55,018 bases of DNA from Pseudobdellovibrionaceae bacterium (GTDB lineage Bacteria > Bdellovibrionota > Bdellovibrionia > Bdellovibrionales > UBA1609): contig JABJQG010000063.1 of the NCBI GenBank assembly GCA_018663505.1, positions 1-55,018 on the forward strand. Direction: 5' to 3'. Below the pieces are notes generated by a model. That model saw only the letters and a list, made by a program, of their open reading frames with translations, was not told the origin of the DNA and did no database searches. Every line of letters begins with the position of its first letter. The stretch's first letter is position 1. The translations under genes and the position numbers were made by a program. Positions 5,626 through 52,954 of this stretch are shown piece after piece.

Positions 5626-7194
5626 TTACACTCCCAATAGACTTTTAGGGAAAAGTTTAACTTCAAGCCTTTTACACTCCCTTTGAACTTTTGGGTCTTG
5701 GAAGCTGTTGCTTACCAGGTGACAGTTTTGATGATTCGCCAGTTTTTCCGCAACATCTAGGCCTGTTTCAGTTTGGCCTCGTAGTTCATAATCCAAAAGA
5801 AACAGTGTGTTTTCTTTAAACTTAGTTAAGTTTTTAGCAAGTTCTTGAGCATGAGTAAACTTATAAATAGGTGCTTTGGTTTTACTTTTAAGTTTTTCTG
5901 TCCATATTTCGTGAATGGACTCGTCATCATCTAAAATTACTACTTGATTTATGTTTTTGTAATTTATTTCTGAGCAGGCCCACTTAGGTTTTACTGCCCC
6001 AGGGAGCTTGATTTCAACGGTGGTTCTTGTGTTTTCTACGGAGTTCACTGCGATTTCACCTCCCCAGCGATTGGCTTTTTGTATGGCTGAATATAAGCCA
6101 AGTCCTTCACCATTTTTTTTGTTAAAACTGAAGCCTTTTGTTCCTATCTTTTGTAATTGATTTTTTGGAATGCCTTTGCCGCTGTCTTGAATTTCAATTT
6201 TTAAGATGGTGCCTACCGTGTGAAGATGAATAATTATAATGCCTTCATCATCAATGGCTTCTATGGCATTTTCCACTAAGTTTGAAATAACTCTTTCTAG
6301 TTCTGTATCATCTATTAAAATATAAGCGCGTTTATCTTCAATATTGCACTTAAACTGAATTTTCTTTTTTGAGTTATAGCCTAATCTAGCTCTTTTTTCT
6401 TCCACGGTGTTTAGTATTGTGGAATACACATGGGTCAGTGCTTTAGCTTTTTTCTTTTTTATTCCATTTTTTAAAACATCTTGAATATTTTCTTGGGAAA
6501 GATCCCTGAGCATAGTAATCATTTTATTATAAGCCACTGAAAGTGTTTTTCGCTCGGCTTCGTCTATATTTGTTGATTTTTCTATTACCGAATTAATTGC
6601 TGTCAGAGGGGATTTGTAATCATGCCGCACTTGTCGTGCAAGCTCAGTAATAGATTCTGTTTGTGCTTTTATAGCTTCATTTTTGAAACTTTCTAAAAGA
6701 AGAGCCTTATGGTTTCTTACTAGTGGATATGTGACTAAGGCTGCAATTGAAAAAATTAAGAGAGTCATGGGCAGCAGTTGAAAAATACCAAAGGTAAAAA
6801 CCACTGTAGCTGCTATCTCATTTTTTTTAAGGTCATAATAAATTGGCTTTTCGTAGGTTGCCTGGGTAAGACTACGCCATATTTTTACTGCTGGACTTAC
6901 TTGTCGTCTAAATTGTGTGGGAAAGGTAAGTTGGAGCTTGCCGTTTCGGTCATATAAATCAACAGCTCTGAAATTATTTTCTTTTAAATCAGACAGTATA
7001 TTTACAATCTCCCTTTTGTCTTCACGTTTAATTTTCCCTTCAAGTGTGCGGCCTACTTGATCTGCCAGCTCTGTTTTTAATGAGTAAGTGGATAACACCA
7101 TAAGTTCAATGAGTACAAATAATGAAATCCCTAGAACTAATAAAATATTACGCCTCATTTTTTTTGAAATATCTTTGAGCTTTTTATCGTTCAT
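5626..7194 (-). CDS. Membrane histidine kinase with C-terminal receiver domain
   Basis: 522 residues. Two membrane segments (about 16-36 and 130-157) bracket a periplasmic sensor region of about 90 residues. The phospho-acceptor box is RHDYKSPLTAI with H191. The ATPase domain has the N box NLVENAIEAI, the G1 box DSGKGIP and the G2 box GEGLGLY. A receiver domain (about 411-522) has the acidic pocket LDDDE, a phospho-acceptor in FLLDYEL, and the conserved lysine in FPKS. It is the last gene of a five-gene minus-strand operon; its ATG lies 4 bases after the YcaO stop. It most likely signals to the NtrC-type regulator at the head of the operon. The receiver may tune the kinase or pass phosphate to another protein. 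Confidence 0.9.
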   Translation of the reverse strand: MNDKKLKDISKKMRRNILLVLGISLFVLIELMVLSTYSLKTELADQVGRTLEGKIKREDKREIVNILSDLKENNFRAVDLYDRNGKLQLTFPTQFRRQVSPAVKIWRSLTQATYEKPIYYDLKKNEIAATVVFTFGIFQLLPMTLLIFSIAALVTYPLVRNHKALLLESFKNEAIKAQTESITELARQVRHDYKSPLTAINSVIEKSTNIDEAERKTLSVAYNKMITMLRDLSQENIQDVLKNGIKKKKAKALTHVYSTILNTVEEKRARLGYNSKKKIQFKCNIEDKRAYILIDDTELERVISNLVENAIEAIDDEGIIIIHLHTVGTILKIEIQDSGKGIPKNQLQKIGTKGFSFNKKNGEGLGLYSAIQKANRWGGEIAVNSVENTRTTVEIKLPGAVKPKWACSEINYKNINQVVILDDDESIHEIWTEKLKSKTKAPIYKFTHAQELAKNLTKFKENTLFLLDYELRGQTETGLDVAEKLANHQNCHLVSNSFQDPKVQRECKRLEVKLFPKSLLGV

Positions 7195-7198
7195 TTAT

Positions 7199-8182
7199 TC
7201 ATCCTAATGGGTGCGGCAATAGGTTAAGATCATTTAATTCTATGGGATTATTTGAAAACACTTGGAGCCTATTAAGATTTATGTACTTTTTGTCAAATTC
7301 ACCGTAAAACGACTTTTGGAAATGAGGATTTTTACATCTAATAGCCGTTAGTGGACTATTTTTAAGTATTTTATGATTTGAATTTAAAATTTCATATTTA
7401 AAGCTGCTTTCTTCTGCAAACTCAGGGTTTTGTTTTTTGATATTGTCTCGATTATTTTTATCTTTATAAATCCAACTATTTTGTTCAATTAGTTTTGATG
7501 TGGAAGAATATAAGCGACGGTGGTCATCGGGCTCTACAATTTGCTTTGAGTAAAAATCATCTAAACTCAGTGGCTCTATAAGCTGGTTAATGGCAGCTAC
7601 AGTATTAGTTAAACACTCTGTAAATGCTTTTTTGGCGGCTATGTCTATATTTTCTGATGCTCCTAAACCTAGAACTAAACCCGAACTTATACCTTTTGAA
7701 ATGCAAACCACTGACTTTGTTTTATTTAAGCTCGTCATTTTAAAAAACTGAAGGTCAACACCATAGGAATTTAACTTAGCTAAAATATATTCTAGATTGA
7801 TCTTGGCTAATTCTATATTTATTTTTTGAAATGGTGTTTTAGTGAGGTAATGACAAAAAAAGCGATCTCGTTCTATTAATTCATTTTTTGCATTTAATTG
7901 AGCCTTTTCTAAATATGTATGTACGGCCACACCACAAGAGCCTATGCTGTTTTCAACACAAATGGCTCTTTCAATGGCTTCAGCTCCGGCCTTAGTGAAA
8001 GCTAAATCCATATTTTCAGCAAGACCTCGCCCAATATGAGTTTTATTGTTAATTGATAGGGACACTTGAAAATCATAAAAGCCTGGCAGCCATTCTTTAA
8101 CCCAAGTGACTTGAGTGGCTTTAAGGCCTAGTTCTTTATGGTGGTCTAACAACCAACGATTTAATTTTTTCTGATTTTCCAT
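7199..8182 (-). CDS. YcaO-domain protein
   Basis: 327 residues from the ATG at 8182 (an in-frame TTG lies at 8191). The YcaO ATP-binding signatures are present: GRGLAENMDLAFTKAGAEAIER (about 51-72), then SCGVAVHTYLEKAQLNAKNELIERD (about 82-106) and GASENIDIAAKKAFTE (about 174-189). YcaO enzymes activate peptide amide bonds with ATP to make azolines, thioamides or amidines. The C terminus, PHPLG, is proline-rich like the PxPxP tail of azoline-forming members, but it is short and its codons overlap the ribosome binding site of the kinase gene. There is no E1-like partner, dehydrogenase or RRE domain in the operon. It overlaps the upstream solute-binding gene by about 22 bases. The substrate is unknown. 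Confidence 0.85.
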   Translation of the reverse strand: MENQKKLNRWLLDHHKELGLKATQVTWVKEWLPGFYDFQVSLSINNKTHIGRGLAENMDLAFTKAGAEAIERAICVENSIGSCGVAVHTYLEKAQLNAKNELIERDRFFCHYLTKTPFQKINIELAKINLEYILAKLNSYGVDLQFFKMTSLNKTKSVVCISKGISSGLVLGLGASENIDIAAKKAFTECLTNTVAAINQLIEPLSLDDFYSKQIVEPDDHRRLYSSTSKLIEQNSWIYKDKNNRDNIKKQNPEFAEESSFKYEILNSNHKILKNSPLTAIRCKNPHFQKSFYGEFDKKYINLNRLQVFSNNPIELNDLNLLPHPLG

Positions 8183-9693
8183 AATGGGCAATTAGCAAAA
8201 AGTTCTGAAAGTTGTGGCACCCAGGGTTTATTAGCAATGGCCACATAGGGTGTACTTACCAGTGGAATCATTCGCCCCTCGGTAAGGGACTCTAAATGCA
8301 TTTTTTTAAGATTTTCTAATCTTTCCTCTCTTTTTTCTGTGTTCATATAATTTTTTAACCATGTTTTCCCATCTTCTTTAGAGAATCCAAATATTCCGGC
8401 TGCCATAGAGTAAGACAAAAGGCTAATGTTTTCTAAAAACCCTGAATCCGTAGATACTATTATAAAATCGGGCATATCTTTGTCAGAAAGCTGAGTAAAA
8501 GCTGGTATGCCATTAGCCTTATCTACTCGTAATTCAGGCATTTGTTTTTTGAGGATTTGTGAGTACTCATCCACTTGGCTTTGATGAAAACTATAAACAG
8601 CGAGGTGCATACCTTCTCCTGAAGCTTCAGCTTCTATACCAGCCATAGTTTTCAATAATTTCTGATCATCGTCTTTTGAAAATCCACCTTCGCTAAAGGG
8701 TAAGAAAAATTGAGTGGCAGGTTTATAGGGTTCTTTATTTTTAAAATGGGTGTGAAATGAACTTTGTAGAGCTTTAGCAAAAGCAAGTCGTTGATTAGCA
8801 TCAAATCTTTGCATACCTTTTTCTGTTACAAAAGCCACTTTTGTTTTTATGTGAATGGTTTCATGAAAGTTTACTTGGCCACGATCAAGCTCCTTAAAGT
8901 CCTCCACATTAAGTCCTTCAATAGTGGTGACCAGGTCTAATTCTCTTTTTTTAAATAAATCTACAATTTTATTTTTTTTAAAGCCTTTTGTTGGGATCAA
9001 TTTAATTTGAGTCGCCATTTTATTTGAATACAAATAATGTTGCGGATTTACCTCCAGTAAAATTTCCCCACCACCTAGGTCTTCTTTAACAAAATATGGG
9101 CCTGATGTGTTTTTATAGTCTTTAATTTTAAGGCTATAAGGTTCTACAGCTATTTTTGGAATAATAGCAAAATCAATAGAAGCAAGCATTGTTAATAAAA
9201 AATCTCTTTTAGCTGCTAGTTTTAAAATTAAGGTATTTCCACTTTTTATAATACCAGGGCAATGATCCTCTACAGTTTTTAAATGTATATTTGGACAAAC
9301 CAGGCTTTTAAAATCGCCATGTGTGTTTTCAGATAAAACTAAAACTCGTTTTAAAGAAAATATCACATCATCAACTGTAATCTTATAGCCTTCAATTGTT
9401 TTTAAATTTTCTCTGATCACCAAATGTAAATCATTACCTCTCCAAAAGTGTTCTTTAGCAATGGAGGCAATAGGTGCGCCTTTATCATCTGAAAGATCAA
9501 TTAAAGGACTATAAATAGTTTCTAATAAAATATATTCATAATCCAGGTGAATACGGGTGGGCTCGTATTCACTGATACTTTGCTTACTTGGGAAGGCCAC
9601 TTTTAAAAAATCACTTGTGGACTGTTCTTGACTCATATTTGTTCTCCAAAAGATAAAAAGTAAAATTGTTATACAAAATACTAAGTACTTCAA
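8161..9693 (-). CDS. Family 5 (peptide-type) solute-binding protein, orphan
   Basis: About 510 residues. I prefer the TTG at 9693: it forms a TTGA overlap with the stop of the upstream gene, has GGTGGTGGAGAAG just before it, and yields a good signal sequence (MKYLVFCITILLFIF). The body follows the SBP_bac_5 pattern of oligopeptide- and dipeptide-binding proteins: YEYILLETIYSPLI near the start, YKITVDDVIFSLKRVL, and a SGPYFVKEDLGGGEILLEVNP segment. No lipobox cysteine is seen, so it may be a free periplasmic protein or stay anchored by an uncleaved segment. No permease or ATPase gene accompanies it. Its place between YcaO and kinase genes suggests ligand sensing rather than transport. Confidence 0.82.
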   Translation of the reverse strand: MKYLVFCITILLFIFWRTNMSQEQSTSDFLKVAFPSKQSISEYEPTRIHLDYEYILLETIYSPLIDLSDDKGAPIASIAKEHFWRGNDLHLVIRENLKTIEGYKITVDDVIFSLKRVLVLSENTHGDFKSLVCPNIHLKTVEDHCPGIIKSGNTLILKLAAKRDFLLTMLASIDFAIIPKIAVEPYSLKIKDYKNTSGPYFVKEDLGGGEILLEVNPQHYLYSNKMATQIKLIPTKGFKKNKIVDLFKKRELDLVTTIEGLNVEDFKELDRGQVNFHETIHIKTKVAFVTEKGMQRFDANQRLAFAKALQSSFHTHFKNKEPYKPATQFFLPFSEGGFSKDDDQKLLKTMAGIEAEASGEGMHLAVYSFHQSQVDEYSQILKKQMPELRVDKANGIPAFTQLSDKDMPDFIIVSTDSGFLENISLLSYSMAAGIFGFSKEDGKTWLKNYMNTEKREERLENLKKMHLESLTEGRMIPLVSTPYVAIANKPWVPQLSELFANCPLWKIRKN

Positions 9694-9971
9694 TTCTCTT
9701 CTCCACCACCTATACAAATAGAACTGGTTACATTTTCAATTTCATCTAAAATGCCACGATCTAAAAGCTCATCAATTAAGCTCTCTTCACTTATGGCTAA
9801 CTGGCAAGGATGTGCTTTTTTTACAAGTTCATGACTCACCAAAAAGCCACACAGTTGTTTTACTTTTAATCTTTTTTCTAATTTTTCTTCTGAAACTTCT
9901 AATTCAGTATTTTCAGCCAGTGATGTTACCGAAGTAAAAAACATTGTGATAATTATAAATATTTTTTTCAT
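9690..9971 (-). CDS. Small secreted protein of the YcaO operon, possible peptide precursor
   Basis: 93 residues with a Sec signal peptide (MKKIFIIITMFFTSVTSLA, cleavage before ENTELEV). The mature part is about 74 residues, acidic and helical at first, then LCGF, HPCQLA and a C-terminal TSSICIGGGEEN. Three cysteines lie in the mature part. The terminal Gly-Gly-Gly-Glu-Glu codons double as the ribosome binding site of the next gene, so the glycine run may not be functional. It could be a substrate of YcaO, a co-sensor, or a chaperone-like partner of the binding protein. I do not recognise a family. It starts 14 bases after the NtrC-type gene ends. Confidence 0.65.
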   Translation of the reverse strand: MKKIFIIITMFFTSVTSLAENTELEVSEEKLEKRLKVKQLCGFLVSHELVKKAHPCQLAISEESLIDELLDRGILDEIENVTSSICIGGGEEN

Positions 9972-9985
9972 ATTTCTCCCCTTGA

Positions 9986-11422
9986 TTAATTTATAGCTAG
10001 CTGCGGTTCTTGAGCCATGCTTAACTTATTTTTTGCTTCATAAAGATCATAAATTTGTAGATCTTTTAAAACCCATATAAAAGTGCTACGCTTCATACCT
10101 AATAATTGCGCCGCTTTTGTTTTATTGCCCTCTGCCTGTACCATCACAGACTTTATCAATGATCTTTTTTGTTGGCGTTGTCTTTTATCTAAATCTCCCA
10201 TAGTCATTCCCTCTTGAATATCAACCACCTGAGTGCTTTCTAAAATCACCTTTGGTAAGTCGGCAGATTCTATGGCGTTTCGATCCACCACAAGATAAAG
10301 TTCACATATGATTTTTTGTAGTTCTCTTACGTTACCTGGCCAGTGATAGTCTTTTAGTTGTTTAAGTGCAGTGGGGGTGAAGCGTTTAAATTTACCTATT
10401 GTTTTTTCCATATTTTTTTGAAAATAATTGATTAAGGGCTCAATATCATCTCGACGAGCTTTTAATGGGGCCAATTCAATATTTAATGATGAAATCCTAA
10501 AGTAGAGATCAATTAAAAATTCATTTTTTAAGGACAGTTCTCTTAAATTAGGCTTACTGGCACAGACCAATCTAAAATCCACTCCATGTTCTGTACGGTC
10601 ACCCACCGGTTGCACTCGCTTTTCTTGAATCACACGCAATAACTTTGCTTGTTGCTCTAAACTTAGGTGATGAATTTCATCTAAAAATAACGTTCCGCCA
10701 TGGGCTTCTCTAAATTTTCCTAATTTATTTGTTTCAGCCCCCGTGAATGCACCTTTAGTGTGACCAAAGAGTTCACTTTCAAATAAGCTTCCAGTAATAG
10801 CAGCACAGTTTAAAGCTATAAAAGGCTTATTTCTACGTTTTGATTGTTTATGAATACTATGGGCCACTAATTCCTTACCGGTGCCAGTTTCTCCCATAAT
10901 TAGTACTGCCTCATCCGATGGGGCAAACTTTTTTGAATACTTAACTACTTTTTTTAAATTCTCAGAAACTCCCACTAAGCCATAGTGGTTAATCAGTTGA
11001 GTGTTTAAGTGAGGGTGACGTTCCTTATATTGGGCTAAAGCAAATTCTGTAAACGTATGAAGCAATTCTTCTCTTAAAGGCTTGTATAAAAACTTCTCAA
11101 CCCCAGAGGAAAGCCATTGATTTAAAGCCTCTTTAGAATCATCCCCAGACATCATTACAACGTAAAGGCTTGGACTAATACTTTTAAGTTCTTTTACAAT
11201 TTCATGACCGATGGCCTCTTGTTCACCAAACTCATTTACAAGTTGATAATCAACAAAGGCACAGGCATAACCCTGAGGAGCAATACGAAATTCATCTACA
11301 GCTATATCTGCTGAAGATCTTAAAACTAATTCTATAGGCTGATCCTGAAAATAAATTTGAAAAGCACTTAGTACTGACAAATCATCATCAATGACTAATA
11401 TCTTTGGATTTTTAATACTCAT
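9986..11422 (-). CDS. NtrC-family sigma-54-dependent response regulator
   Basis: About 478 residues from the ATG at 11422, preceded by AGGGGGG. The receiver domain comes first (ILVIDDD, phospho-acceptor aspartate in AFVDYQL near residue 58, lysine in FLYKP). Next is the AAA+ domain with Walker A GETGTGKE, the sigma-54 contact loop GAFTGA, Walker B GGTLFLDEI and the R-finger region. A C-terminal Fis-type helix-turn-helix follows (NKTKAAQLLGMKRSTF). It should bind enhancer sites and open sigma-54 promoters when phosphorylated. It leads the operon containing the kinase, so the two are a natural pair. A consensus sigma-54 promoter lies just upstream, which indicates autoregulation. Confidence 0.95.
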   Translation of the reverse strand: MSIKNPKILVIDDDLSVLSAFQIYFQDQPIELVLRSSADIAVDEFRIAPQGYACAFVDYQLVNEFGEQEAIGHEIVKELKSISPSLYVVMMSGDDSKEALNQWLSSGVEKFLYKPLREELLHTFTEFALAQYKERHPHLNTQLINHYGLVGVSENLKKVVKYSKKFAPSDEAVLIMGETGTGKELVAHSIHKQSKRRNKPFIALNCAAITGSLFESELFGHTKGAFTGAETNKLGKFREAHGGTLFLDEIHHLSLEQQAKLLRVIQEKRVQPVGDRTEHGVDFRLVCASKPNLRELSLKNEFLIDLYFRISSLNIELAPLKARRDDIEPLINYFQKNMEKTIGKFKRFTPTALKQLKDYHWPGNVRELQKIICELYLVVDRNAIESADLPKVILESTQVVDIQEGMTMGDLDKRQRQQKRSLIKSVMVQAEGNKTKAAQLLGMKRSTFIWVLKDLQIYDLYEAKNKLSMAQEPQLAIN

Positions 11423-11468
11423 CTTGGCCCCCCTAAAACAAAAGCTACAATGTTCTCTGTCCTCCATC

Positions 11469-14980: not shown

Positions 14981-14995
14981 TGGCACAGCCTATGT
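14981..14995 (+). promoter_or_regulatory. Possible degenerate sigma-54 promoter
   Basis: TGGCACAGCCTATGT has a perfect -24 half (TGGCAC), but the -12 half is ATGT instead of TTGC. If used, transcription would begin near 15007, just before the hairpin at 15013. The -12 mismatch makes this tentative. Confidence 0.35.
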
Positions 14996-15012
14996 AATAG
15001 ATGCTTCTCGAA

Positions 15013-15043
15013 AACATTCCCTCTCACTTATAGGGGGAATGTT
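15013..15043 (+). promoter_or_regulatory. Leader hairpin upstream of the first element gene
   Basis: AACATTCCC and GGGAATGTT form a perfect 9-bp inverted repeat with a 13-base loop. Its last three bases (GTT, 15041-15043) are also the first bases of the GTTGCC stem in the following element, so the two hairpins cannot both form fully. Confidence 0.55.
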
Positions 15044-15099
15044 GCCTTTGTCGCCCACGGCAACTAAGGCAACAAATTTACTATAAGTAGGGAGGTAAA
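15041..15099 (+). repeat. Structured leader element, copy 1
   Basis: GTTGCCTT pairs with AAGGCAAC (15041-15048 with 15066-15073), enclosing an internal GGCAAC. The element ends in the ribosome binding site GGGAGG next to the ATG at 15105. The last 47 bases match copy 2 at 43 positions. The paired ends differ between copies in a compensating way (T-A here, C-G there). Confidence 0.65.
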
Positions 15100-15104
15100 A
15101 AATT

Positions 15105-15656
15105 ATGAGTACAAAAAAAACAAAAAAACCATGGGTCAAAGAAAATGGAAAACCACTTGATGATAAGGAGCTTGAAGTGAATTGTAATCAATGGTCACCA
15201 GAAATATGGGAAGATTATTTATCAACTTTTGAAAAGAAACAAGATGAACTTCTTTTTGATAACCCTATAAATGCGGAAGAGTATTCACAAGATTATCATA
15301 ACCAGTTTTATAAAAATATCTTTACTGAAAAAGATCTACCACAGCTTAAAAAAATAACCAGCGCCTTAATGAGAGAGCTTTCAGACAAACAACAGCTTAT
15401 TCTGTATTCAATATTTTGGAAAGAACAAAAGTTAAGTGAAATAGCTGAATATCTCAATTTACATAAAAGTTCTGTTTTAAAAATTAGAGATCGTGCTTTA
15501 AAGCAATTGGCAAAAAAACTAGTTAGCCATGTGGCACAAGCTTTTACTGAAACTCAAAGCAATAAAGGTCAAACACCTGATGCCATAGTTGCCCCCGGCA
15601 ACAAGGGCAACAAATTCACTATAAGTAGGGAGGTAAATTTTGAAAACAACATATAA
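15105..15656 (+). CDS. Sigma-70 region 4-like regulator, first gene of the element
   Basis: 183 residues. Residues about 88-140 form a region-4 helix-turn-helix: ALMRELSDKQQLILYSIFW, then LSEIAEYLNLHKSSVLKIRDRALKQL. Region 2 is missing, so it is not a full sigma factor; it could be an anti-terminator, a Crp-independent activator or a partial sigma-like regulator. The N terminus is charged and unassigned. About residues 162-178 are encoded by copy 2 of the leader element, so the tail sequence is dictated by that element. The start has GGGAGG at good spacing. It overlaps the next gene by 17 bases. Confidence 0.7.
   Translation: MSTKKTKKPWVKENGKPLDDKELEVNCNQWSPEIWEDYLSTFEKKQDELLFDNPINAEEYSQDYHNQFYKNIFTEKDLPQLKKITSALMRELSDKQQLILYSIFWKEQKLSEIAEYLNLHKSSVLKIRDRALKQLAKKLVSHVAQAFTETQSNKGQTPDAIVAPGNKGNKFTISREVNFENNI
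15588..15637 (+). repeat. Structured leader element, copy 2
   Basis: It lies inside the 3' end of the preceding gene and directly before the TTG start at 15640. GTTGCCC pairs with GGGCAAC (15588-15594 with 15604-15610), and an alternative tight hairpin GTTGCC-CCC-GGCAAC is also possible. It ends in the same GGGAGG ribosome binding site as copy 1. Confidence 0.65.
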
Positions 15657-15822
15657 AGCAAAAAGAATAAGGAAAAAGCTAATCATAACATTAAAAAAAA
15701 TTTCAAAGAATATTCATAGGATCTTGTTTGAAGGAAGAATTGATGAAGCGTATTTAGAAAAAATAAAACAAGAACATCTTGAGCGACTAGCTAGAGCTGG
15801 ATATTGCCAACATCACTTATGA
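15640..15822 (+). CDS. Small basic protein of unknown function
   Basis: 60 residues, starting at a TTG directly after the second leader element. It is strongly basic at first (KTTYKAKRIRKKLIITLKK), then helical (DEAYLEKIKQEHLERLARAGY), and ends CQHHL. The basic helix could bind nucleic acid. It overlaps the 3' end of the sigma-like gene, so translation may be coupled and controlled by the leader fold. Confidence 0.55.
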   Translation: MKTTYKAKRIRKKLIITLKKISKNIHRILFEGRIDEAYLEKIKQEHLERLARAGYCQHHL

Positions 15823-15844
15823 TTTTTAAAAAGGGAGTGTTATT

Positions 15845-16249
15845 TTGAAAACTGTAAAAATTAGTATCAGAGAACAAATACCAATGAAAATAAACTGCAC
15901 AGGGGTAAATTATGAAGATACACATAAATTATCTGTTAAAGAACTTTTACTGTTTATTGAACGTGATTTAAGGTGTCTGTCTTTAGAAAATGGACAAATC
16001 TTTTCACTTATAACAGTTAGACTTCAAGAGAATAAATTTGGTCAAATTCCAAAGATTGAGGTTAAAGTCAGTGGGGATGATCATGCTGCCTACTGGGCTT
16101 TGCTTGAGGATCTAGAAGGTATTCTCTGGAGCTATAACAAACAAATTTTTTATCAAAACGCAGGTTCCTTAAACAAAGTCTATCACCGCTTTGATTATCA
16201 GATTCATTTTGAAAAAAATAAATCCGGACAACTTGAACAAGCAAGCTAA
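15845..16249 (+). CDS. Unknown protein of the element's regulatory head
   Basis: 134 residues from a TTG start with GGGAG upstream. Its composition is mixed alpha/beta: KTVKISIREQIPMKI, then ELLLFIERDLRCLSLENGQIFSLITVRL, a central GQIPKIEVKVSGDDHAAYWALLEDLE and an aromatic tail. No membrane segment or known motif. It is in line with the regulatory genes before virB2. Confidence 0.55.
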   Translation: MKTVKISIREQIPMKINCTGVNYEDTHKLSVKELLLFIERDLRCLSLENGQIFSLITVRLQENKFGQIPKIEVKVSGDDHAAYWALLEDLEGILWSYNKQIFYQNAGSLNKVYHRFDYQIHFEKNKSGQLEQAS

Positions 16250-16285: not shown

Positions 16286-16585
16286 ATGAAAACAGAAAAC
16301 CTAGAAGCATCTGACTTATTAGAGGTCAGTGATGTTCTTGAGTATATAAAAAATAATGAGCATTTTAATGAAGTTTTAAGAGATATAATCACAGAGCTGC
16401 CAGCTCTGGAGCAATCCATTGTCTATATGCGATTTTGGGAAGATAAAGACCCTTATGAAATCAGTTATGAATGTGGCTTTAGTGTAAACACCGTTTCTGA
16501 CATTTTGGAAGGCTCTTTTGATTTTTTGAAAGATCGTGTTTTGTTTGAATTTCAAGAAGGTCAAGCCTCTTTGCTTACGGCTTAA
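16286..16585 (+). CDS. Second sigma region 4-like protein
   Basis: 99 residues. The pattern IITELPALEQSIVYMRFWEDKDPYEISYECGFSVNTVSDIL matches sigma-70 region 4 (L-P-x-x-E/Q-x-x-x-V-x-x-R-F, then a helix-turn-helix). It lacks region 2. It is shorter than the protein at 15105 and shares only the domain type. GGAAAAATT precedes the ATG. Both proteins lie upstream of the secretion genes and probably regulate them. Confidence 0.65.
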   Translation: MKTENLEASDLLEVSDVLEYIKNNEHFNEVLRDIITELPALEQSIVYMRFWEDKDPYEISYECGFSVNTVSDILEGSFDFLKDRVLFEFQEGQASLLTA

Positions 16586-34672: not shown

Positions 34673-35969
34673 ATGTCTAATAAAAATATCAAGCTAAATA
34701 AAGATGATGAACTTTGTACCGAAAAATACACTTTTCAAGGAAAAGTGTATTTAAAGATCATAGTTCAAAAAAGAAATAAAGACGGTAAGATGATTAAAAA
34801 ATCAAGTCGTTTTACTAAATCTGGAAATCGTATTTTATCTATTAAATCTGCTGAAGCTGTAAAGTATTGGCTTAAGAATCAACTGGAACAAGTTGTTGAT
34901 GAAAAATCAATTTACACATGGCAGGCTTGGCGAGAAAAAACTGTTCATGAGATGCGAAAAGATGGCTACATGGAAAGCACACTTAAAACTTACGAGGGGA
35001 CTTTAAACAAATGGATTGATCCTGCTTGGCTAGATAAAGAACTTTCTTCATTTACTCGCGATGATGTTTTTGAATTTATTCATGAATATCTTGTAAATAA
35101 AGAAGCCACTAGCTGGACTAGAAAAAACATTTGCAAAAAAGTACATAAGCTTTTTGAACTTGCTGTGGACCATGGGGAACTTTCTAGAAATCCATGCCGT
35201 GGGATTAAAGTAGATGCAAAAGCCAGTGAAGGTCTTGCCTTGACTCCAGGGGAAGTAGAAATACTTTTAACTAAAGCAAAAGCTATAAACCATGACTATT
35301 TCCCACACTGGGTCTTAGCTTTAATGACAGGTATGCGTTGCGGTGAACTTTACGCCTTAAGGTGGAGTGATATTGATTTTGAAGCCGGAGTTATTCGTGT
35401 TCTTAGACAATACACATCTAAGGACGGCCTTCACCCTCCCAAGCGCGGAAAAACAAGGCCTATTGATCTAAGCCCCGAGCTAAAGTCTTTTTTAACTGTG
35501 CTTAAGCAAAAACATGGCTTAGCCCAGCAAAAACTCTGGACCTGGAAGAGTGAACGACAAATGGTAGATGAAATTGTCTGCGGAAGAAAAACCGGCAAAC
35601 AAATCTCAAAGCTTAATAAGGTTAAAGACTACATAACACTTGATGATCTAGTTTTGCCCCGCGTGCGTTCTTGGATGATGGGTATGCAAGCAAAAAGATC
35701 TCCGGGAATTTTGTAAGCTAATAGGAATTAGAGAAATTCAATTTCACGATCTAAGAGCTACCCATATCACCAACCTTTTAGAAAATGGAGCCTCTATTAG
35801 CAAAGTAATGAAACAGGTTGGCCACAGTAAAATGTCCACAACAGACGGCTATCACAGGCTCACAGGAGTGAAAGTAAAAGGATTAACTAATCACCTTAGC
35901 TTTATTCCACCTAAAGATGAGCTACCTGAAAATGTGGTTGCATTATTTCCAAAAAAGGTTTCAAATTAA
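34673..35969 (+). pseudogene. Tyrosine integrase, split by a +1 frameshift at 35692
   Basis: The first part (34673-35716) contains the Arm-like start, SAM-like core-binding domain and R in TGMRCGELYALRW. It stops early at GIL. In another frame the protein goes on: DLREFCKLIGIREIQFHDLRATH, VGHSKMSTTDGYHRL, then ends at 35969. All catalytic residues (R, H-x-x-R, H, Y) are present across the two parts. The shift lies in a run of five A (35692-35696); one A too many breaks the frame. It is either an inactivating mutation or a sequence error. A programmed -1 shift would not restore the frame. Confidence 0.9.
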
Positions 35970-36069
35970 AAACACTGAAGCCTTTTGAAGCCCCTACGGT
36001 TAAAAAGGTGAATGATATTCATTGATTGGAACCTGTTGGGTTTTCCGACCAATTTTCAAGGGTCCATAC
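35970..36069. other. Gap between integrase and insertion sequence
   Basis: About 100 bases without a gene. The right attachment site of the element would be expected here, but I could not match it to a left copy. It holds a local direct repeat (TGAAGCC-TTTTGAAGCC). Confidence 0.3.
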
Positions 36070-37344
36070 CGGACACATGGGTTACATATTATACCGAAGA
36101 CATAGGTAACACTTTTGCTCCAAAGGGATCTTTCCCTGCTTCAACTCTTTCGGCTTTATCATCAAAATACCCTATGTCATAATCCATAAAACTTACCTGC
36201 CATATCTTATCATCAACTTGTCTAATTCCAACATCCTGACCTGCAAAAACTCTACTAAGGTTAATCTTCCTCCCTCCTAAACATTTTCGACCACAATTGG
36301 TTACTGTTATTACTTTATCGTGCAAAGGGTACTCTAGGTTCGGTAACCCCTCGTACTTTCGCAATGATGGTTTATAAACCTCGCCTGGATATTTCATTTC
36401 TAATGCTTCATGCGGTCGCTCTTGATTATATTCATAAATAAATTCATCAAACTTTTCCTGTTGTTGAAGTAAATTATTGCCAGCGGGTTTTGTAGCCTCT
36501 TTTTTTAACGTTAAGTGCATTCGCTCATGCCTTCCATTTTGCTCCGGATGACCTGGTTGTATGCGTTCGATATTTATACCCAATCGCAACCACCACACCG
36601 ACAAGCGACTTAACCCAAATATAGCCTGTACATTTGAAAATGGGTTACCATTATCAGTTCGTATGGCATTAGGTAAACCAAATTCTTTAAATGCGCTTTC
36701 AAAAACTGTAAATGCATACGGATATTTCGTTGTTTCTAAAGCATCACAAGCTATTAAGTAACGGCTACTAAAATCAGTAATTGTCAGTGGGTAACAATAA
36801 ACTTGGTTGCCCATTAGAAACTCACCTTTATAATCTGCACACCAAAGCTCATTGGGAACACTTGTATAACTTAATGCTGTCCCCTTAGCTTTGTACCGCC
36901 GTTTCTTTCTCGTATTAACTAAGCCATGACGATCTAGAACAGCATGAACAGTGCTCTTTGCAGGAAGTTTAATTCCGGGAAACTTTCTTCTGATTCTTTC
37001 TCTAATTTTTCTAGCACCCCAACTTGGCTTTTCTTTTTTAGCTTGAATAATTACTTTTTCAAGCTGCATTGGTAGTTGATTAGCCATGCGGTAGGGCTTA
37101 CGACTTCTATCAGTGAGCCCCTCAACACCACAGGTTTTATACCTATCTCTAATTTTGTAACCCGTTTTTCTTGAAATACCAAATTCACGACACAAAGATG
37201 CCATTGATTCACCATCAAGTAACTTAGCTATAAATTTAAGCTTCTCATCCATTTTTTTACACTCCATCCATGGCATAAGACTTCCCTCCTTATGCCAAAA
37301 AGTGTAACCTATGTGTCCGGTACAAAGTGTGACCCATGTGTCGG
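36070..37344. mobile_element. IS481-type insertion sequence
   Basis: About 1.28 kb. The left end reads GGACACATGGGTTACA, then a second similar block ACCGAAGACATAGGTAACA. The right end, on the other strand, reads CCGACACATGGGTCACA followed by ACCGGACACATAGGTTACA. Each end thus carries two related repeats in the same order. The single gene lies inside. No clear target duplication was found. Confidence 0.8.
36089..37276 (-). CDS. IS481-family transposase
   Basis: 395 residues from MPWMECKK at 37276; the longer ORF would run through the terminal repeats and is rejected. A helix-turn-helix start (SMASLCREFGISRKTGYKI) is followed by the rve/DDE core: NELWCADYKGEF, IRTDNGNPF, and GHPEQNGRHERMH with the final glutamate. 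A C-terminal Mu-type part follows. The frame is intact, so the element may be active. Confidence 0.92.
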   Translation of the reverse strand: MPWMECKKMDEKLKFIAKLLDGESMASLCREFGISRKTGYKIRDRYKTCGVEGLTDRSRKPYRMANQLPMQLEKVIIQAKKEKPSWGARKIRERIRRKFPGIKLPAKSTVHAVLDRHGLVNTRKKRRYKAKGTALSYTSVPNELWCADYKGEFLMGNQVYCYPLTITDFSSRYLIACDALETTKYPYAFTVFESAFKEFGLPNAIRTDNGNPFSNVQAIFGLSRLSVWWLRLGINIERIQPGHPEQNGRHERMHLTLKKEATKPAGNNLLQQQEKFDEFIYEYNQERPHEALEMKYPGEVYKPSLRKYEGLPNLEYPLHDKVITVTNCGRKCLGGRKINLSRVFAGQDVGIRQVDDKIWQVSFMDYDIGYFDDKAERVEAGKDPFGAKVLPMSSV

Positions 37345-37468
37345 GCCGCTCAACCTGGAGAAAATAGGTGAGAGATTGAAATTCCAAGAAAAGATGCAAA
37401 GAACCCCGCATAGATCCTTAGCTCTTGTTGTAGTCGATGCAGAAGAGCCATCATGGATGGCTAAGTAA
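37345..37468 (+). pseudogene. 3' end of a gene cut by the insertion sequence
   Basis: An open frame beginning at the right end of the insertion sequence reads LNLEKIGERLKFQEKMQ, then HRSLALVVVDAEEPSWMAK and a stop at 37466. It has good protein composition but no start. It is presumably the tail of a gene whose 5' part was lost when the insertion sequence arrived. No 5' part is found left of the insertion sequence. Confidence 0.5.
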
Positions 37469-41933: not shown

Positions 41934-44777
41934 TTAATCAATTACCTCAATTATATTAGCATTCACCCAGCCATTAAAGCCTGTGCTTGCATCGTAAATG
42001 TTAAAATAGATGGTGTCTCCACTTTCATATTGATCTATCGCAATTGGACTCCAGCCTAGAGTGCGATCATCGAGCACCATGTTCTTTAATTTTGCAGCAT
42101 ATACTTCAATTTCAGAATAAGATGAGCCTGATGATGAGATAAAGTAACTTATTAAATAGGATTTTGGATCTCCAACACTATTATTAATACTTACCTGATC
42201 AACATGGGGACCAAATGGAGCTAAACTACTATCTAAGCTAATATTACCATAGCTAGAGTTATAATTTTGAGGGTCATATTCATCCCCACTAAAATGCGTA
42301 ATTATTGGAGGGGGCAGTGTTGCATCACCCTGATAAACAATAGTTGTCGGGGGGAAGTTGTAATCCCAATGAGAGTGAAGGTCTCTTCTTAAAAAGAACA
42401 TATCGGTACCATAGGGTTGGAAAAAATTCTCTTCTCTATAATTTGCAACACTAACAGATGGATCTGTTGTAGAATCTGCTATCAAACTTCCATAAACTAT
42501 ATATACAACTCCAAAGTCGGGTATCTCATAGCCTTTGTGATCTTTATGATACTCGCGATACCCATATCTATCATCAATTGAATAATAGCCTGAAACATGT
42601 GCCATTCTTCCTGGTTGAAAATTTAGAGTTAGAAGATCAATTTCATATGTGAGAGGTTCACTCTCAATCATTCTATTGAAATCAGATTGTACAACGATAA
42701 GCGCATATCTGCTCTGAGCTTCAAATGTAAGTGTGCTTGAGGAATGATTGTGATCAAATGTATCTATTAGCTGCCTAGTTGAAATGTATGGGCCACTACT
42801 ATTTGGACCTTCAATTTTATATAATTTTGCTAAAAACTCTCCACCAGAAGAAATTGGAGTTTTACTAAAAAAGGGTTGGATATTAAGCGTAACACTTGTT
42901 TCAGATTCCGAATAGAATTCACGAACAAATCCACCCGGCACATTAGCTGCTCCCGCTGAAGTTGAACTACTAATATTAATACTGAATGGTTGAAATGCCA
43001 CAGCTTGTAGGTACTGCATTTCAGGAAAATTTATGGTGTCTTGGTAACTGTACTCAAGGATATATTCAGCGTAAGCCTCGGTAAGTTTTGTGAGGTTTCC
43101 ATTGCCATTCAAAGCTCTGTCTAGGGGAGCATATAAGGAGTCTTTAGTTTTAAGGCTATTCTCATATACATCTTTAATATGAGCCGTTTTATATTCATCA
43201 TTTTTTATAAAATCACAAATATTTAATGGGCTGTTTCTGCGACTAGAAATAAACTCTAAAAATAAAGATTGTTGATATTTGCGTACTATACCAGTTCTAA
43301 GGCGATCAGCACTAGCATTTGGAAATTGATTTTTATTATAGGATGTTAATCCATCAAGAATAAGAGCTTCATTAAAATAACTGAGCTTATCCGAAAGATA
43401 CACATTGTTTGGAAAAACTTTGTTAGCAGCGTAATCAGCAGTGCTTTCAGTAATCCATTTGAGCGGGCCATCCACCGGTAGCTCAAGAAGATTGCTGTTA
43501 TCACTTTCTGCTTGGTAGGCATGGAAGTACTCGTGAGCAACTACGTGGCTTCGCATTTCGTTTGCCACGTTTTGTAATTGGGTGGCTAATGGTTCGGCTT
43601 CTTGACTACATGTGTTTGCTCCCCAGTCATTTATACAGCGGGATTGTATTGAGATAAATGTTCGTGGAAATATCTCAAAAAAGAAAAATCTTGTAGAAAT
43701 TTTTCGAGTAAAATTCTTAAAATGAGGATTTACAAAAACTTTTACAGAGTTTGGAGAAGTACAGCCCATATTTTCGTAAGCAGCTTTTGAGGTTTCAAAA
43801 TCAATGTAGGCTTTTTCTAAGTAAGCGTTTACAGCCTCTTTCGCTCCAGGTTGATCTACATCAGATGGCTTTGAAAACACCCAATAAATATCATAGCTTG
43901 AGCTGAGCCCATCATAAAGGAGAGCTTTAGATTTAAATAGTTGGCCAACAAATTTAAGGTCTGTATTAGAATAAGGGTTATTTATGGCCTGTAAAAAGCC
44001 ATTAAGGGTGTTGTTGTCCTCATTCATCTGAATAATGTTAAATCCAGAATCGTCATCAGAGCTTTGCCCATCGCTTTGTTGCCATTGACTTACCAAGTAA
44101 TAAACTTCATCATCTGCAGCTGGCGAAAGCCCTGCTTCAGTTAAGTTAATTTTTAGGGCAACTCCAGCACCGTCTTTTGTAGCTAGGTTACCACCACTGA
44201 GTTCTAAAACAAAAGCTGGGGATTGTTTGCCTTCAAATTGACCACTAGTAAGGTTTACATTTGTAAAGCTAAGCTTGGTAGCTACTTCTTGTAGTTCATT
44301 TGTACTGGGAATTGTTAGCTGATAGCCTTTTAGTTCTGTTAGCTTTTCAAAAACAAAATCATCACCATTAATTTCACCAGTTTTTATCTCCTCAGGGTTA
44401 ACAACCTGGACTCTCCAGGTATGCTTCAGATTTATAAAATCACCAGAAGTTACATTTACTGAAAACTCAATTTCCTTACCAATGTCTGAAGATAGTGGTG
44501 TCCAAGTGATTTCTTTATTTCCAGAAAATTGCATACTAAGATCTACACCGTCAATAACTGCTGATAGGATATAAAAATCTTCATTAAAAAATGTATCTTT
44601 TGGTATTGGTGAATATGAATATGTATTTCCAATAAGTACAAAGTTTGTAGGAGTACTTTTAAACTGGAATACCTGGGTGGGGGCATATTGTTTTGGGGGG
44701 GTGTCGTCACTACTTCCACCCCTACAACCCATAAGACTTAAACAAATTGTGATTATTAAAATAGACGCAAACTTCAT
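41934..44777 (-). CDS. Large secreted lipoprotein with HEYFH motif
   Basis: 947 residues. The lipobox is SLMGC (Cys18) after a signal peptide, followed by a serine- and aspartate-rich linker. Residues about 35-130 may be a cadherin-like or Ig-like fold (ITWTPLSSDIGKEIEFSV). A HEYFHAYQ motif lies near residue 415, followed by WITESTADYAANKVFP, a zinc-peptidase pattern (HExxH with a downstream glutamate). The C-terminal half is beta-rich. It has a paralogue at 45459-48473. It probably acts at the outer surface. Confidence 0.75.
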   Translation of the reverse strand: MKFASILIITICLSLMGCRGGSSDDTPPKQYAPTQVFQFKSTPTNFVLIGNTYSYSPIPKDTFFNEDFYILSAVIDGVDLSMQFSGNKEITWTPLSSDIGKEIEFSVNVTSGDFINLKHTWRVQVVNPEEIKTGEINGDDFVFEKLTELKGYQLTIPSTNELQEVATKLSFTNVNLTSGQFEGKQSPAFVLELSGGNLATKDGAGVALKINLTEAGLSPAADDEVYYLVSQWQQSDGQSSDDDSGFNIIQMNEDNNTLNGFLQAINNPYSNTDLKFVGQLFKSKALLYDGLSSSYDIYWVFSKPSDVDQPGAKEAVNAYLEKAYIDFETSKAAYENMGCTSPNSVKVFVNPHFKNFTRKISTRFFFFEIFPRTFISIQSRCINDWGANTCSQEAEPLATQLQNVANEMRSHVVAHEYFHAYQAESDNSNLLELPVDGPLKWITESTADYAANKVFPNNVYLSDKLSYFNEALILDGLTSYNKNQFPNASADRLRTGIVRKYQQSLFLEFISSRRNSPLNICDFIKNDEYKTAHIKDVYENSLKTKDSLYAPLDRALNGNGNLTKLTEAYAEYILEYSYQDTINFPEMQYLQAVAFQPFSINISSSTSAGAANVPGGFVREFYSESETSVTLNIQPFFSKTPISSGGEFLAKLYKIEGPNSSGPYISTRQLIDTFDHNHSSSTLTFEAQSRYALIVVQSDFNRMIESEPLTYEIDLLTLNFQPGRMAHVSGYYSIDDRYGYREYHKDHKGYEIPDFGVVYIVYGSLIADSTTDPSVSVANYREENFFQPYGTDMFFLRRDLHSHWDYNFPPTTIVYQGDATLPPPIITHFSGDEYDPQNYNSSYGNISLDSSLAPFGPHVDQVSINNSVGDPKSYLISYFISSSGSSYSEIEVYAAKLKNMVLDDRTLGWSPIAIDQYESGDTIYFNIYDASTGFNGWVNANIIEVID

Positions 44778-45458: not shown

Positions 45459-48400
45459 TTATAAAACTATTAAAGAAACGGAAAAATAATATGTATCTGC
45501 AAATAAGAAGCTATTTCCTGACCCCGTTGGCGAAGCCAGTACTTTAACGTTGTATAAATAATAATCCCCAACAGAAGAGTCATTGCTATATCTCCGGCCT
45601 TCTTCCCAGTTTACAGCACCTGACCTAATATCAGCAAGTATACCATCAATATGTTTTTGGATTTCAGAATCAGGCGGCTTAACAGCAACCATTGTGTCTT
45701 CAGCTTGAACAATATTAAAGTTAAACTCCATAAGTACCTTAATTGAAGGATCTCCATTAATACTAATAGTTTCAATATAGGGCCCTGAAACAGATTTTTC
45801 AGGAATATCCGCTGAAGCAAGAGTTGTGTTTGCATGTGTTGCCCAAAGGTCCTCAATCCCTTCTAGACTTAATATTTCACCTTTGCCTAAGGACAAAGGA
45901 CCATCATCATAAGTTATTGTTTGATTAAAATACTCTTCCTTTATACGGTTACCAGCAACAGAAAGGGTATGACTATTAATGCAACTTACAGCATAGAGAT
46001 CATTTTCACTACAAAGCTCCCCAATTTTAGTATTAAAACCAGAGACACCAAGTTTTTCAATATCTAAAAAAACTGTTGTTGACCTTCTTGTCTGTGAGTC
46101 TGAAAATTTGAATTTGTAAGTGGAGGAATAATACATTTTACTATGAATATCCTGTTCAATCTTCACAAGTAAGCGCCGGCCTAATTTCATATAGGTGGTA
46201 TTTGAGCTTGTCTCGTAAAAATCTATACCTTGAAATCTGGTCGGGGTATAACTGTGATATTCTTTTTGACTTAAAAACGCTTTTAAAGGAGCTGGTTGAG
46301 TTACTGTAAAACCAAAATTTACAAGTTTATTATCTAATTGTGCTGAAAAATCAGATTGAGAAAAAATTAACGCATACTCTTTTCCGGCATCTAAGGAGAC
46401 TTGTTTTATCATATTATTTTCATCAAATTCTTCTATGGGGTCTGATTTTAAAACCACACCATTGGCATCTTTTATGATAGGATACAGCTCTACAAAAAAA
46501 ATTGCTTTTGAATCTGCAACATTGTCTGGCTCAGCCAATGCTTCAATGTTTACAAGCCCATCAAAATCAGCTATGAAGGTGATCGATTGTCCCCCTATTA
46601 CACTGTCATTTAGCCATTGAGTTAAAGGCAACAAATTTTCAGATAACACGATTTTCTGTAGATCTTCTACAAAATTAAATTCTGATAATTCATCTATATA
46701 TGGTATCAATTCAGGCACTTGATAGTTATAGGCAAAAATAAAATTTGAAAATCCTTTTTTTAAACCATCCATTTCTGGGTCAGAAAAATTACGCAATAGA
46801 TTATCAAGAGGTTTCAGATATTTTATTTTTTCAGCATAAGTATTAAGGTAAGAGTAATGCAATTCATTAACATTGAAGTATTCCGTACTTTTGATAAACT
46901 CACAAATATTTAGATGACCTCCACGTTGTTTTTTAATATATTCAAAAAATAAACTTAATTTATAATTTTTGTGTAAATAATCAGGAAACATTGTTAATAA
47001 TTCGTGATTAATTGTAGTTAGCCCACCTCTAACAAGTTCATTCTTCCATTTAAAGCCGGCCTCCTTACCAAGTATAGCTAATGTGGGAAAAACCTCTTCG
47101 CTGGCAAATTCAGCACTACTTTCGGTGATCCAAGTTCTTGGATCACCGGCATAAATATAGCCCAATCTGGAGTTTGGAAGTTGAGCTACATGAAAATACT
47201 CGTGTGCCACAGCATGTTTTAACTCGGTAGTCCCAGGACCATTCTCACCTAAGCCATCAAAATAAGGGTAACTACAAATCCGATTACCATAGGACCAACT
47301 TCTACAATCAGAGAAGCTAATATAAGGTACGGTGAAATTATCAAGGTTTTTATATACATGAGTAAATGTTTCTAAATGTGGACTAATAAAAATCTGCGTA
47401 ACAAATGGTTCTGTGCAACCCAAGCTTGAATATTTAGCTTGAGAAGTCACTAAATAGTCCAATAATTTATTTATAAATTTCTTTACGTATACTTTTCGAC
47501 TTTCACTATTTTCTTCATTCTCAAATAACCATATAAGTTCAAAGTTATTATTTTTCTCATTCATATCACTATTAGGTCTTACTGCTAAAGAAGGGGATTT
47601 TACTAATTGTGCCATAAAAAATCTTTGTGTTTCGGGAATGGCTTCATCACTAAAAGTATGGGTAAAAAATGCTGTTAAAATTCCTTCTTTTTCAAGTACA
47701 GGAATAACTTTTAACCCGTTTTTATTCTTATGTCCTGGAGCTCCAAGGGAGGCCATAGTATCTACAACTATAAAATATTGTTCATTTAATTTCGGAGCAG
47801 GGGGCGAAAATGGGTTTTTATCAGATTTAGTTTTAATTGATATTTTTAGTTCAAAGCTTTTTCCCGAAAGGTTAAAGTTTTGATTTAAAGATATTTTTTC
47901 AGAAGGGTCAAATTCTAAAACTAATGCGGGTGAGGCCAGTCCTTCTTTAAAGGCTCCATTGGTTAAATCAACGTCTAGCATGTTTGCCGAAAGTTGGACC
48001 TCTTTTAAGTCAGTCGTAGGTGATATATTAATGCTGTATCCAGGTACAAACTTATCAATGGGCAGGGCAATTCCATTTTCAAATTTTGCATCTAAATTTA
48101 TGGGTATCTTAGTTTTTTGAAGTACGTTGACTCCCCATGAAAACACAATGTTTTTATTACCAGAAAGAACTTCAATTTGTAAATTCTGTTTTCCAATATC
48201 ATCCACAGTGGGTGTCCAGTAGATGGCTTTTTCTGTTTTATTTCCTCCAGTGACTCCTGTGAATCTTTCTACACTAAAATCTTCGTCATAATACTCTTCT
48301 TTAGGAATCGGATTATATACATAAGTTACGCCAACCACCGCATAATTTTTTGGTTGATTTACAAAACTTTCACTTTCAACAACAACTTCAACAGGCGAAT

Positions 48401-48473
48401 CTCCTCCAAGTTTGCAACCAAGAAAGTTAACAATAGCGACAAAGGCCATAAGTTTTAGCATAATTTTTAGCAT
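45459..48473 (-). CDS. Large secreted lipoprotein with HEYFH motif, paralogue
   Basis: 1004 residues. The lipobox is NFLGC. As in the neighbour, an early segment reads IYWTPTVDDIGKQNLQIEV, and a HEYFHVAQ motif near residue 423 is followed by TWITESSAEFASEEVFP. A conserved HLNICEFIKSTEYF (neighbour: PLNICDFIKNDEY) follows. The ends diverge. The two genes are a tandem duplication. The function is inferred only from the motif. GGAG lies 8 bases before the ATG. Confidence 0.75.
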   Translation of the reverse strand: MLKIMLKLMAFVAIVNFLGCKLGGDSPVEVVVESESFVNQPKNYAVVGVTYVYNPIPKEEYYDEDFSVERFTGVTGGNKTEKAIYWTPTVDDIGKQNLQIEVLSGNKNIVFSWGVNVLQKTKIPINLDAKFENGIALPIDKFVPGYSINISPTTDLKEVQLSANMLDVDLTNGAFKEGLASPALVLEFDPSEKISLNQNFNLSGKSFELKISIKTKSDKNPFSPPAPKLNEQYFIVVDTMASLGAPGHKNKNGLKVIPVLEKEGILTAFFTHTFSDEAIPETQRFFMAQLVKSPSLAVRPNSDMNEKNNNFELIWLFENEENSESRKVYVKKFINKLLDYLVTSQAKYSSLGCTEPFVTQIFISPHLETFTHVYKNLDNFTVPYISFSDCRSWSYGNRICSYPYFDGLGENGPGTTELKHAVAHEYFHVAQLPNSRLGYIYAGDPRTWITESSAEFASEEVFPTLAILGKEAGFKWKNELVRGGLTTINHELLTMFPDYLHKNYKLSLFFEYIKKQRGGHLNICEFIKSTEYFNVNELHYSYLNTYAEKIKYLKPLDNLLRNFSDPEMDGLKKGFSNFIFAYNYQVPELIPYIDELSEFNFVEDLQKIVLSENLLPLTQWLNDSVIGGQSITFIADFDGLVNIEALAEPDNVADSKAIFFVELYPIIKDANGVVLKSDPIEEFDENNMIKQVSLDAGKEYALIFSQSDFSAQLDNKLVNFGFTVTQPAPLKAFLSQKEYHSYTPTRFQGIDFYETSSNTTYMKLGRRLLVKIEQDIHSKMYYSSTYKFKFSDSQTRRSTTVFLDIEKLGVSGFNTKIGELCSENDLYAVSCINSHTLSVAGNRIKEEYFNQTITYDDGPLSLGKGEILSLEGIEDLWATHANTTLASADIPEKSVSGPYIETISINGDPSIKVLMEFNFNIVQAEDTMVAVKPPDSEIQKHIDGILADIRSGAVNWEEGRRYSNDSSVGDYYLYNVKVLASPTGSGNSFLFADTYYFSVSLIVL

Positions 48474-52895: not shown

Positions 52896-52954
52896 CCCAT
52901 ACCTTACCACGTCTATTTTTTTTCTTATTCCTCTGAAAACCTTTTAATTATTCT

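Follow-up and report, generated by a model that had tools for sequence, protein, structure and literature searches.

The window, which is the whole 55,018-nucleotide stretch of DNA analysed here, is contig C42 of a 3.8-Mb genome and carries an integrative conjugative element (ICE) that spans about 12 kb to 36 kb. The ICE encodes a TrbC/VirB2 pilin, TraL/VirB3-like and TrbI/TraM-like proteins, an FtsK-like ATPase and a tyrosine recombinase, together with a VirB4-like ATPase in a long open reading frame (ORF) that was named from its motifs. The tyrosine recombinase (34673-37411 region) covers only positions 8-87 of the 172 in the Phage_integrase domain, and a transposase-like ORF comes after it on the opposite strand; a truncated integrase, and hence an ICE that is stuck, is possible. 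Outside the ICE, large genes for lipoproteins or surface proteins that look alike stand side by side in two pairs (41934-44777 with 45459-48473, and 50700-52910 with 52955-54706).

According to our analysis, orf1 (15105..15656, plus strand) encodes a predicted regulator whose C-terminal part is a sigma-70 region 4 and whose N-terminal part has no known domain. Pfam PF04545 matches residues 89-136 only, at 29.3 bits (cut-off 24.1), no other sigma region was detected in the protein, and among solved structures FliA region 4 is the nearest to it in sequence (A1 profile, E 3e-9). With region 4 and without region 2, the protein has the make-up of a sigma-region-4-only regulator. The first gene after it, orf2 (15640..15822, plus strand), encodes a 60-aa basic protein with a homologue on another contig of the same genome, C55, and a second sigma-region-4-like protein is encoded at 16286..16585 (plus strand). 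Fusions of the two sigma-region-4 proteins, of roughly 270-340 residues, were found at L040, L044, L047, L048, L076, L078 and L019. Since they are fused in several relatives, it is suggested that the products of 15105 and 16286 work together, with 16286 as the likely partner.

Two copies of one element before orf1 and orf2

The stretches 15053-15099 and 15591-15637 are identical at 43 of 47 bases without a gap, at an offset of exactly 538; when the comparison is widened to 15041-15099 and 15579-15637, 51 of 59 bases are identical, the match being weaker outside the 47-base core. The best pair in shuffled versions of the window reached 29/47 and BLAST in the whole genome gave an E value of 2e-14, so that the duplicated element before two different genes, described earlier in a sequence-only reading of this DNA, is real. 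Both copies also end, as had been noted there, in the same ribosome binding site, GGGAGG, located 6-10 nt before the start codons ATG 15105 and TTG 15640.

Copy 1 (15041..15099, plus strand) precedes orf1 and contains the repeats GGCAAC at 15059-15064 and 15068-15073 (plus strand, 9-bp period), followed by a box, ACTATAAGTAGGGAGG (15080-15095, plus strand), which doubles as the Shine-Dalgarno (SD) sequence of orf1. Copy 2 (15579..15639, plus strand) precedes orf2 and lies inside the end of orf1; its repeats GGCAAC are found at 15597-15602 and 15606-15611 and its box, which doubles as the SD of orf2, at 15618-15633, all on the plus strand. In the window, copy 2 does lie in coding sequence, as previously claimed, and encodes the tail of the protein of ORF 15105-15656, but this holds for the window only: in the two other ICEs that carry the pair, orf1 stops before the second copy.

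An inverted copy, GGCGAC-N3-GGCAAC-ATTCCCC-CTATAAGTGAGAGGG, overlaps copy 1 (15019..15055, minus strand). Its box was supported at p=0.007 in a leave-one-out test and fits the phylum-wide box consensus better than do the boxes of copies 1 and 2, and the covariance model also matches the opposite strand at 15012-15074 (minus; E 6.5e-6).

The two copies had been credited with a paired change, GTTGCCT/AGGCAAC in one and GTTGCCC/GGGCAAC in the other, that would keep an outer stem. This turned out to be an error of register, the two 5' arms not being homologous. In the ungapped register, GTTGCCT of copy 1 (15041-15047) is aligned with GATGCCA of copy 2 (15579-15585), and GTTGCCC of copy 2 (15588-15594) with GTCGCCC of copy 1 (15050-15056). 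Read in this way, the outer helix of copy 2 has two non-pairs and the inner helix of copy 1 has one, so that each copy shows small stem defects of its own.

Copies and related boxes in other conjugative elements

The genome contains another ICE, a diverged one on contig C55, that has the same layout, with one copy before orf1 and one before orf2; its orf1 is 45% identical to that of the window in the aligned region. A DNA-pattern scan of 84,980 genomes returned one further ICE with the pair, in a Halobacteriovorax metagenome-assembled genome (MAG), and the same scan of IMG/VR returned nothing. The orf1 domains of the three ICEs are only 39-45% identical. The proposal of a cis-acting element that couples two genes is thus borne out as far as conservation goes, with further copies before the same two genes in C55 and Halobacteriovorax. 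The covariance-model search that had been suggested as a check, run on 369 genomes, recovered the pair in the three ICEs and nothing believable outside them; the one extra match (G186, E 0.0065) falls within an ATPase gene, in its coding sequence, and was rejected as chance.

All six copies share GCAAC-N4-GCAAC and ACTATA-N2-TA-N-GGAG, with the box at exact SD distance, and vary in their 5' arms. The first repeat base differs between genomes, GGCAAC being found in both ICEs of this genome and TGCAAC at both Halobacteriovorax sites, including the orf2 copy, which carries it even though it is without the pairing arm. As for the RNA stem as the conserved object, the claim holds for the three orf1 copies, where the stem is intact or nearly so and where C-G to A-U changes on both sides occur in Halobacteriovorax, but it fails in the orf2 copies, which have decayed: most pairs are gone in Halobacteriovorax and the outer stem is gone in C55. 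Across the copies, 81% of cells were paired with 3 double changes in total, which falls short of a conserved helix.

In order to place these copies in a wider family, we relied on about 45 relatives retrieved by an orf1 profile search of 369 genomes of the phylum; a search for the ORF1 protein in the contig collection of 84,980 genomes and in IMG/VR yielded no confirmed relatives. A box with the core WTTWRTGAGRGG, related to ACTATAAGTAGGGAGG, is located at the orf1/orf2 junction in most relatives, which amounts to some 30 other ICEs of the phylum. It was evaluated in 40 non-redundant relatives, leave-one-out, against dinucleotide-preserving shuffles. The box cores were picked by eye, so that the enrichment p-values that follow are guides only: downstream of orf1, Fisher p=4.5e-18 on the sense strand and p=0.012, which is not convincing, on the opposite strand; upstream of orf1 in inverted orientation, Fisher p=1.7e-5, contributed by the window, C55, Halobacteriovorax, L083 and L086. 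Depending on the element, the box falls in non-coding DNA or in any one of the three reading frames; fusions of orf1 with the second sigma-4 protein retain it in their linker (L040, L047, L048, L076, L078), and in other ICEs it is far from any SD. Given these frames, the non-coding contexts and the survival in fusions, neither the protein sequence nor the starting of orf2 explains the box, and protein constraint was rejected as its cause. Two other candidates were dropped, namely a T7-promoter-like look of the box (CTATAGNTAGGGAG), since the phylum-wide core differs, and CsrA-type GGA motifs, since many boxes are without GGA.

Significant direct repeats precede the box in 10 of 33 relatives (Fisher p=2.4e-6), with periods of 9-12 and mostly 10-12 bp. 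The repeat units differ between lineages and match within an ICE wherever both sites carry repeats; no copy with repeats was found near other transfer genes. When inverted copies are compared with forward ones, the repeats and the box are the same and the spacers have drifted (in L087, TTTTTTC versus TGAATCC), which is expected for recognition by a protein and not for pairing. Direct repeats with helical spacing, a unit common to the sites of one element and, at the sequence level, occurrence in either orientation are all seen here, as would be expected for the operator of a regulator that binds in tandem. Some relatives have neither direct repeats nor a clear box. Moreover, a hairpin directly follows the box in about 10 of 33 relatives (Fisher p=2.6e-6); it is absent from the window's lineage. 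Where it was seen in L046, L057, L067, L068, L073, L074 and L079, this hairpin is AT-rich with covarying G/C ends, as in GGGCAAAAAATTTTTTGCTC.

DNA site, RNA leader and other readings

What the sequence itself shows is that the repeats, the box and the inverted copy are present, conserved and adjacent to orf1. We interpret copies 1 and 2 as two instances of one protein-binding DNA control site, or operator, of the ICE, a reading to which we give a probability of about 0.52. The unit of the site would be the two 6-bp direct repeats GGCAAC, 9 bp apart, with the box at a near-fixed distance after them. DNA is favoured, since what is kept is sequence and not pairing, since the repeats are mostly spaced by about one helical turn, and since the sites occur in both orientations with drifting spacers. 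Some observations count against it: the repeat period in the window's lineage is 9 and not 10-11, the box there is always at SD distance, which implies that it is read as RNA too, the stem of the orf1 copies shows compensatory changes, some relatives have neither repeats nor a clear box, and the hairpin after the box is left unexplained by a pure DNA site. On balance, we put the odds of DNA against RNA at roughly two to one.

The strongest alternative, which we regard as unlikely but well worth weighing, is an RNA leader in which mRNA folding, together with a trans factor or with temperature or a ligand, would gate the GGGAGG sites of orf1 and orf2. In each of the six copies the box does serve as an SD, be it of orf1 or of orf2, and the copy 1 mRNA is self-complementary, CCTCTCACTTATAG with CTATAAGTAGGGAGG, in a fold that puts the SD in a 14-bp stem. 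However, shuffled sequences pair their SD just as strongly as copy 1 does (p=0.33), and the SD of the C55 copy is mostly free (p=0.83), whereas that of Halobacteriovorax orf1 is paired beyond chance (p=0.010). Across the family, orf1 leaders pair their SD a little more than expected by chance (p=0.03, against 0.98 for control genes), a seemingly strong sequestration having shrunk to this marginal level once tested against shuffles. The stem with its double changes in the orf1 copies and the hairpins after the box in relatives speak for a leader; the loss of the stem in the orf2 copies, the copy on the antisense strand and the ICEs with a box far from any SD speak against it. Rfam gave no covariance-model match at gathering score in the window, with only chance-level matches near 15000-16000, and 17 related loci gave no match with an E value of up to 1. 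RNA thermometers and ribosomal-protein leaders hide a ribosome-binding site, and copy 1 can likewise cover its SD, but they differ from the present case, which has no Rfam match and loses the stem in the second copy. If the operator reading holds, the copy 1 hairpin is probably a by-product of two face-to-face sites, which may secondarily hide the ribosome-binding site.

Less probable still is a promoter in which the repeats would be activator sites and the box the -10 region from which the transfer operon starts. The near-fixed distance between repeats and an AT-rich box (TATAAG, TATTAG, TATTAT) and the location before transfer genes in most relatives would suit it, and the hairpin just 3' of the box could then be a 5'-terminal hairpin. 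The layout recalls the T4 middle promoters (MotA box, sigma appropriation; PMC6755090), where a binding box for an element-encoded protein likewise precedes another conserved box by a fixed distance; those promoters differ in that the box here is unconvincing as a -10 element, the repeats are in tandem and the proteins are others. The conserved stretch includes GAGRGG and mostly has T where a -10 element would have A; the box is a poor -10 element and so lends no support to a promoter function. In addition, a start inside the box would remove the SD in the window's lineage, and inverted copies are not consistently oriented towards a gene.

That the site serves in DNA processing, for example as an origin of transfer or in recombination, is very unlikely: inverted and direct repeats do adjoin a conserved core on a conjugative element, but with 2-3 copies in each element, in both orientations about a single gene, recombination or loss would be expected, and no repeat-bearing copy lies near other transfer genes. 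A recent tandem duplication without function, to which only the high identity of the two copies points, is hardly credible, being contradicted by conservation and by a layout common to three ICEs with diverged flanks and proteins.

A proposed transfer switch

A sigma54-like -24/-12 promoter of orf1, TGGCACAGCCTATGTA, is predicted at 14981..14996 (plus strand; p=0.037 in the window). The motif (TGGCAC...) recurs upstream of orf1 genes with a family-wide Fisher p=6e-10, so that the promoter is statistically supported across the family and predicted in the window. Its candidate activator is a sigma54-dependent response regulator encoded at 9986..11467 on the minus strand, and a histidine kinase is encoded at 5626-7194. 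The region 5626-11467, upstream of the transfer genes, brings together the histidine kinase, a YcaO-domain protein, a peptide-type solute-binding protein and the sigma54 activator, and the region upstream in C55 (L007 214-3350) has a kinase and a solute-binding-like gene too; control of transfer by a peptide signal is possible. Palindromes, e.g., GTGCGATTTCGCAC, are located upstream of the sigma54-like promoters in L047, L080, L040, L061 and L076 and are likely enhancer sites of the sigma54 activator.

If copies 1 and 2 are operators, a signal through the element's own two-component kinase and regulator would act on the sigma54 promoter and turn orf1 on, and the orf1 product would then act at the sites that precede orf1 and the transfer operon. 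Copy 1 with its inverted twin would control orf1, and copy 2 would control the transfer operon from orf2 onward. The regulator that binds the repeats would be encoded by the ICE and would most likely be the orf1 product, possibly with its sigma-4 partner at 16286; to name orf1 is a guess which follows from its adjacency and its sigma-region-4 domain. That the site acts as DNA, that the orf1 product binds it and in which direction it regulates are points we infer from sequence.

In ICEclc, a cascade of ICE-encoded regulators governs the transfer genes, and a regulator feeds back on its own switch. A cascade encoded by the ICE, control of transfer genes and self-feedback would be common to both systems, the feedback being only inferred here. 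They differ in their proteins, which are FlhDC-like in ICEclc and sigma-region-4-like here and thus unrelated, and in the sigma54 entry and the tandem-repeat-plus-box sites, which are features of the present system. Two reports (PMC7423338, PMC9286271) describe the ICEclc transfer-competence switch with its BisDC activator and feedback. Like SigO of SigO/RsoA and the positive control factors of phages (NCBIfam NF005385), the orf1 product is a small region-4-only helix-turn-helix protein, but it is distinguished from them by an N-terminal part without known domain and a sometimes-fused region-4 partner, with no region 2 found. A literature search, to which most subscription papers were out of reach, found no description of this regulatory system. 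We propose, tentatively and with less confidence than for the operator itself, a transfer switch new for conjugative elements of Bdellovibrionota, in which paired sigma-region-4-only proteins, separate or fused and induced through sigma54, would act on sites of the tandem-repeat-plus-box type on either side of the regulator gene, which persist even in coding sequence in any frame; the element-specific repeat units may set specificity.

If this reading is true, it would also show how two DNA sites that face each other can give rise to a plausible RNA stem, and it would provide a case of a regulatory site maintained within protein-coding sequence. Gene transfer in Bdellovibrionota has been little studied, and the finding would supply the control site and the likely master regulator of a family of conjugative elements in predatory and related members of the phylum, along with a DNA signature by which such elements could be found.
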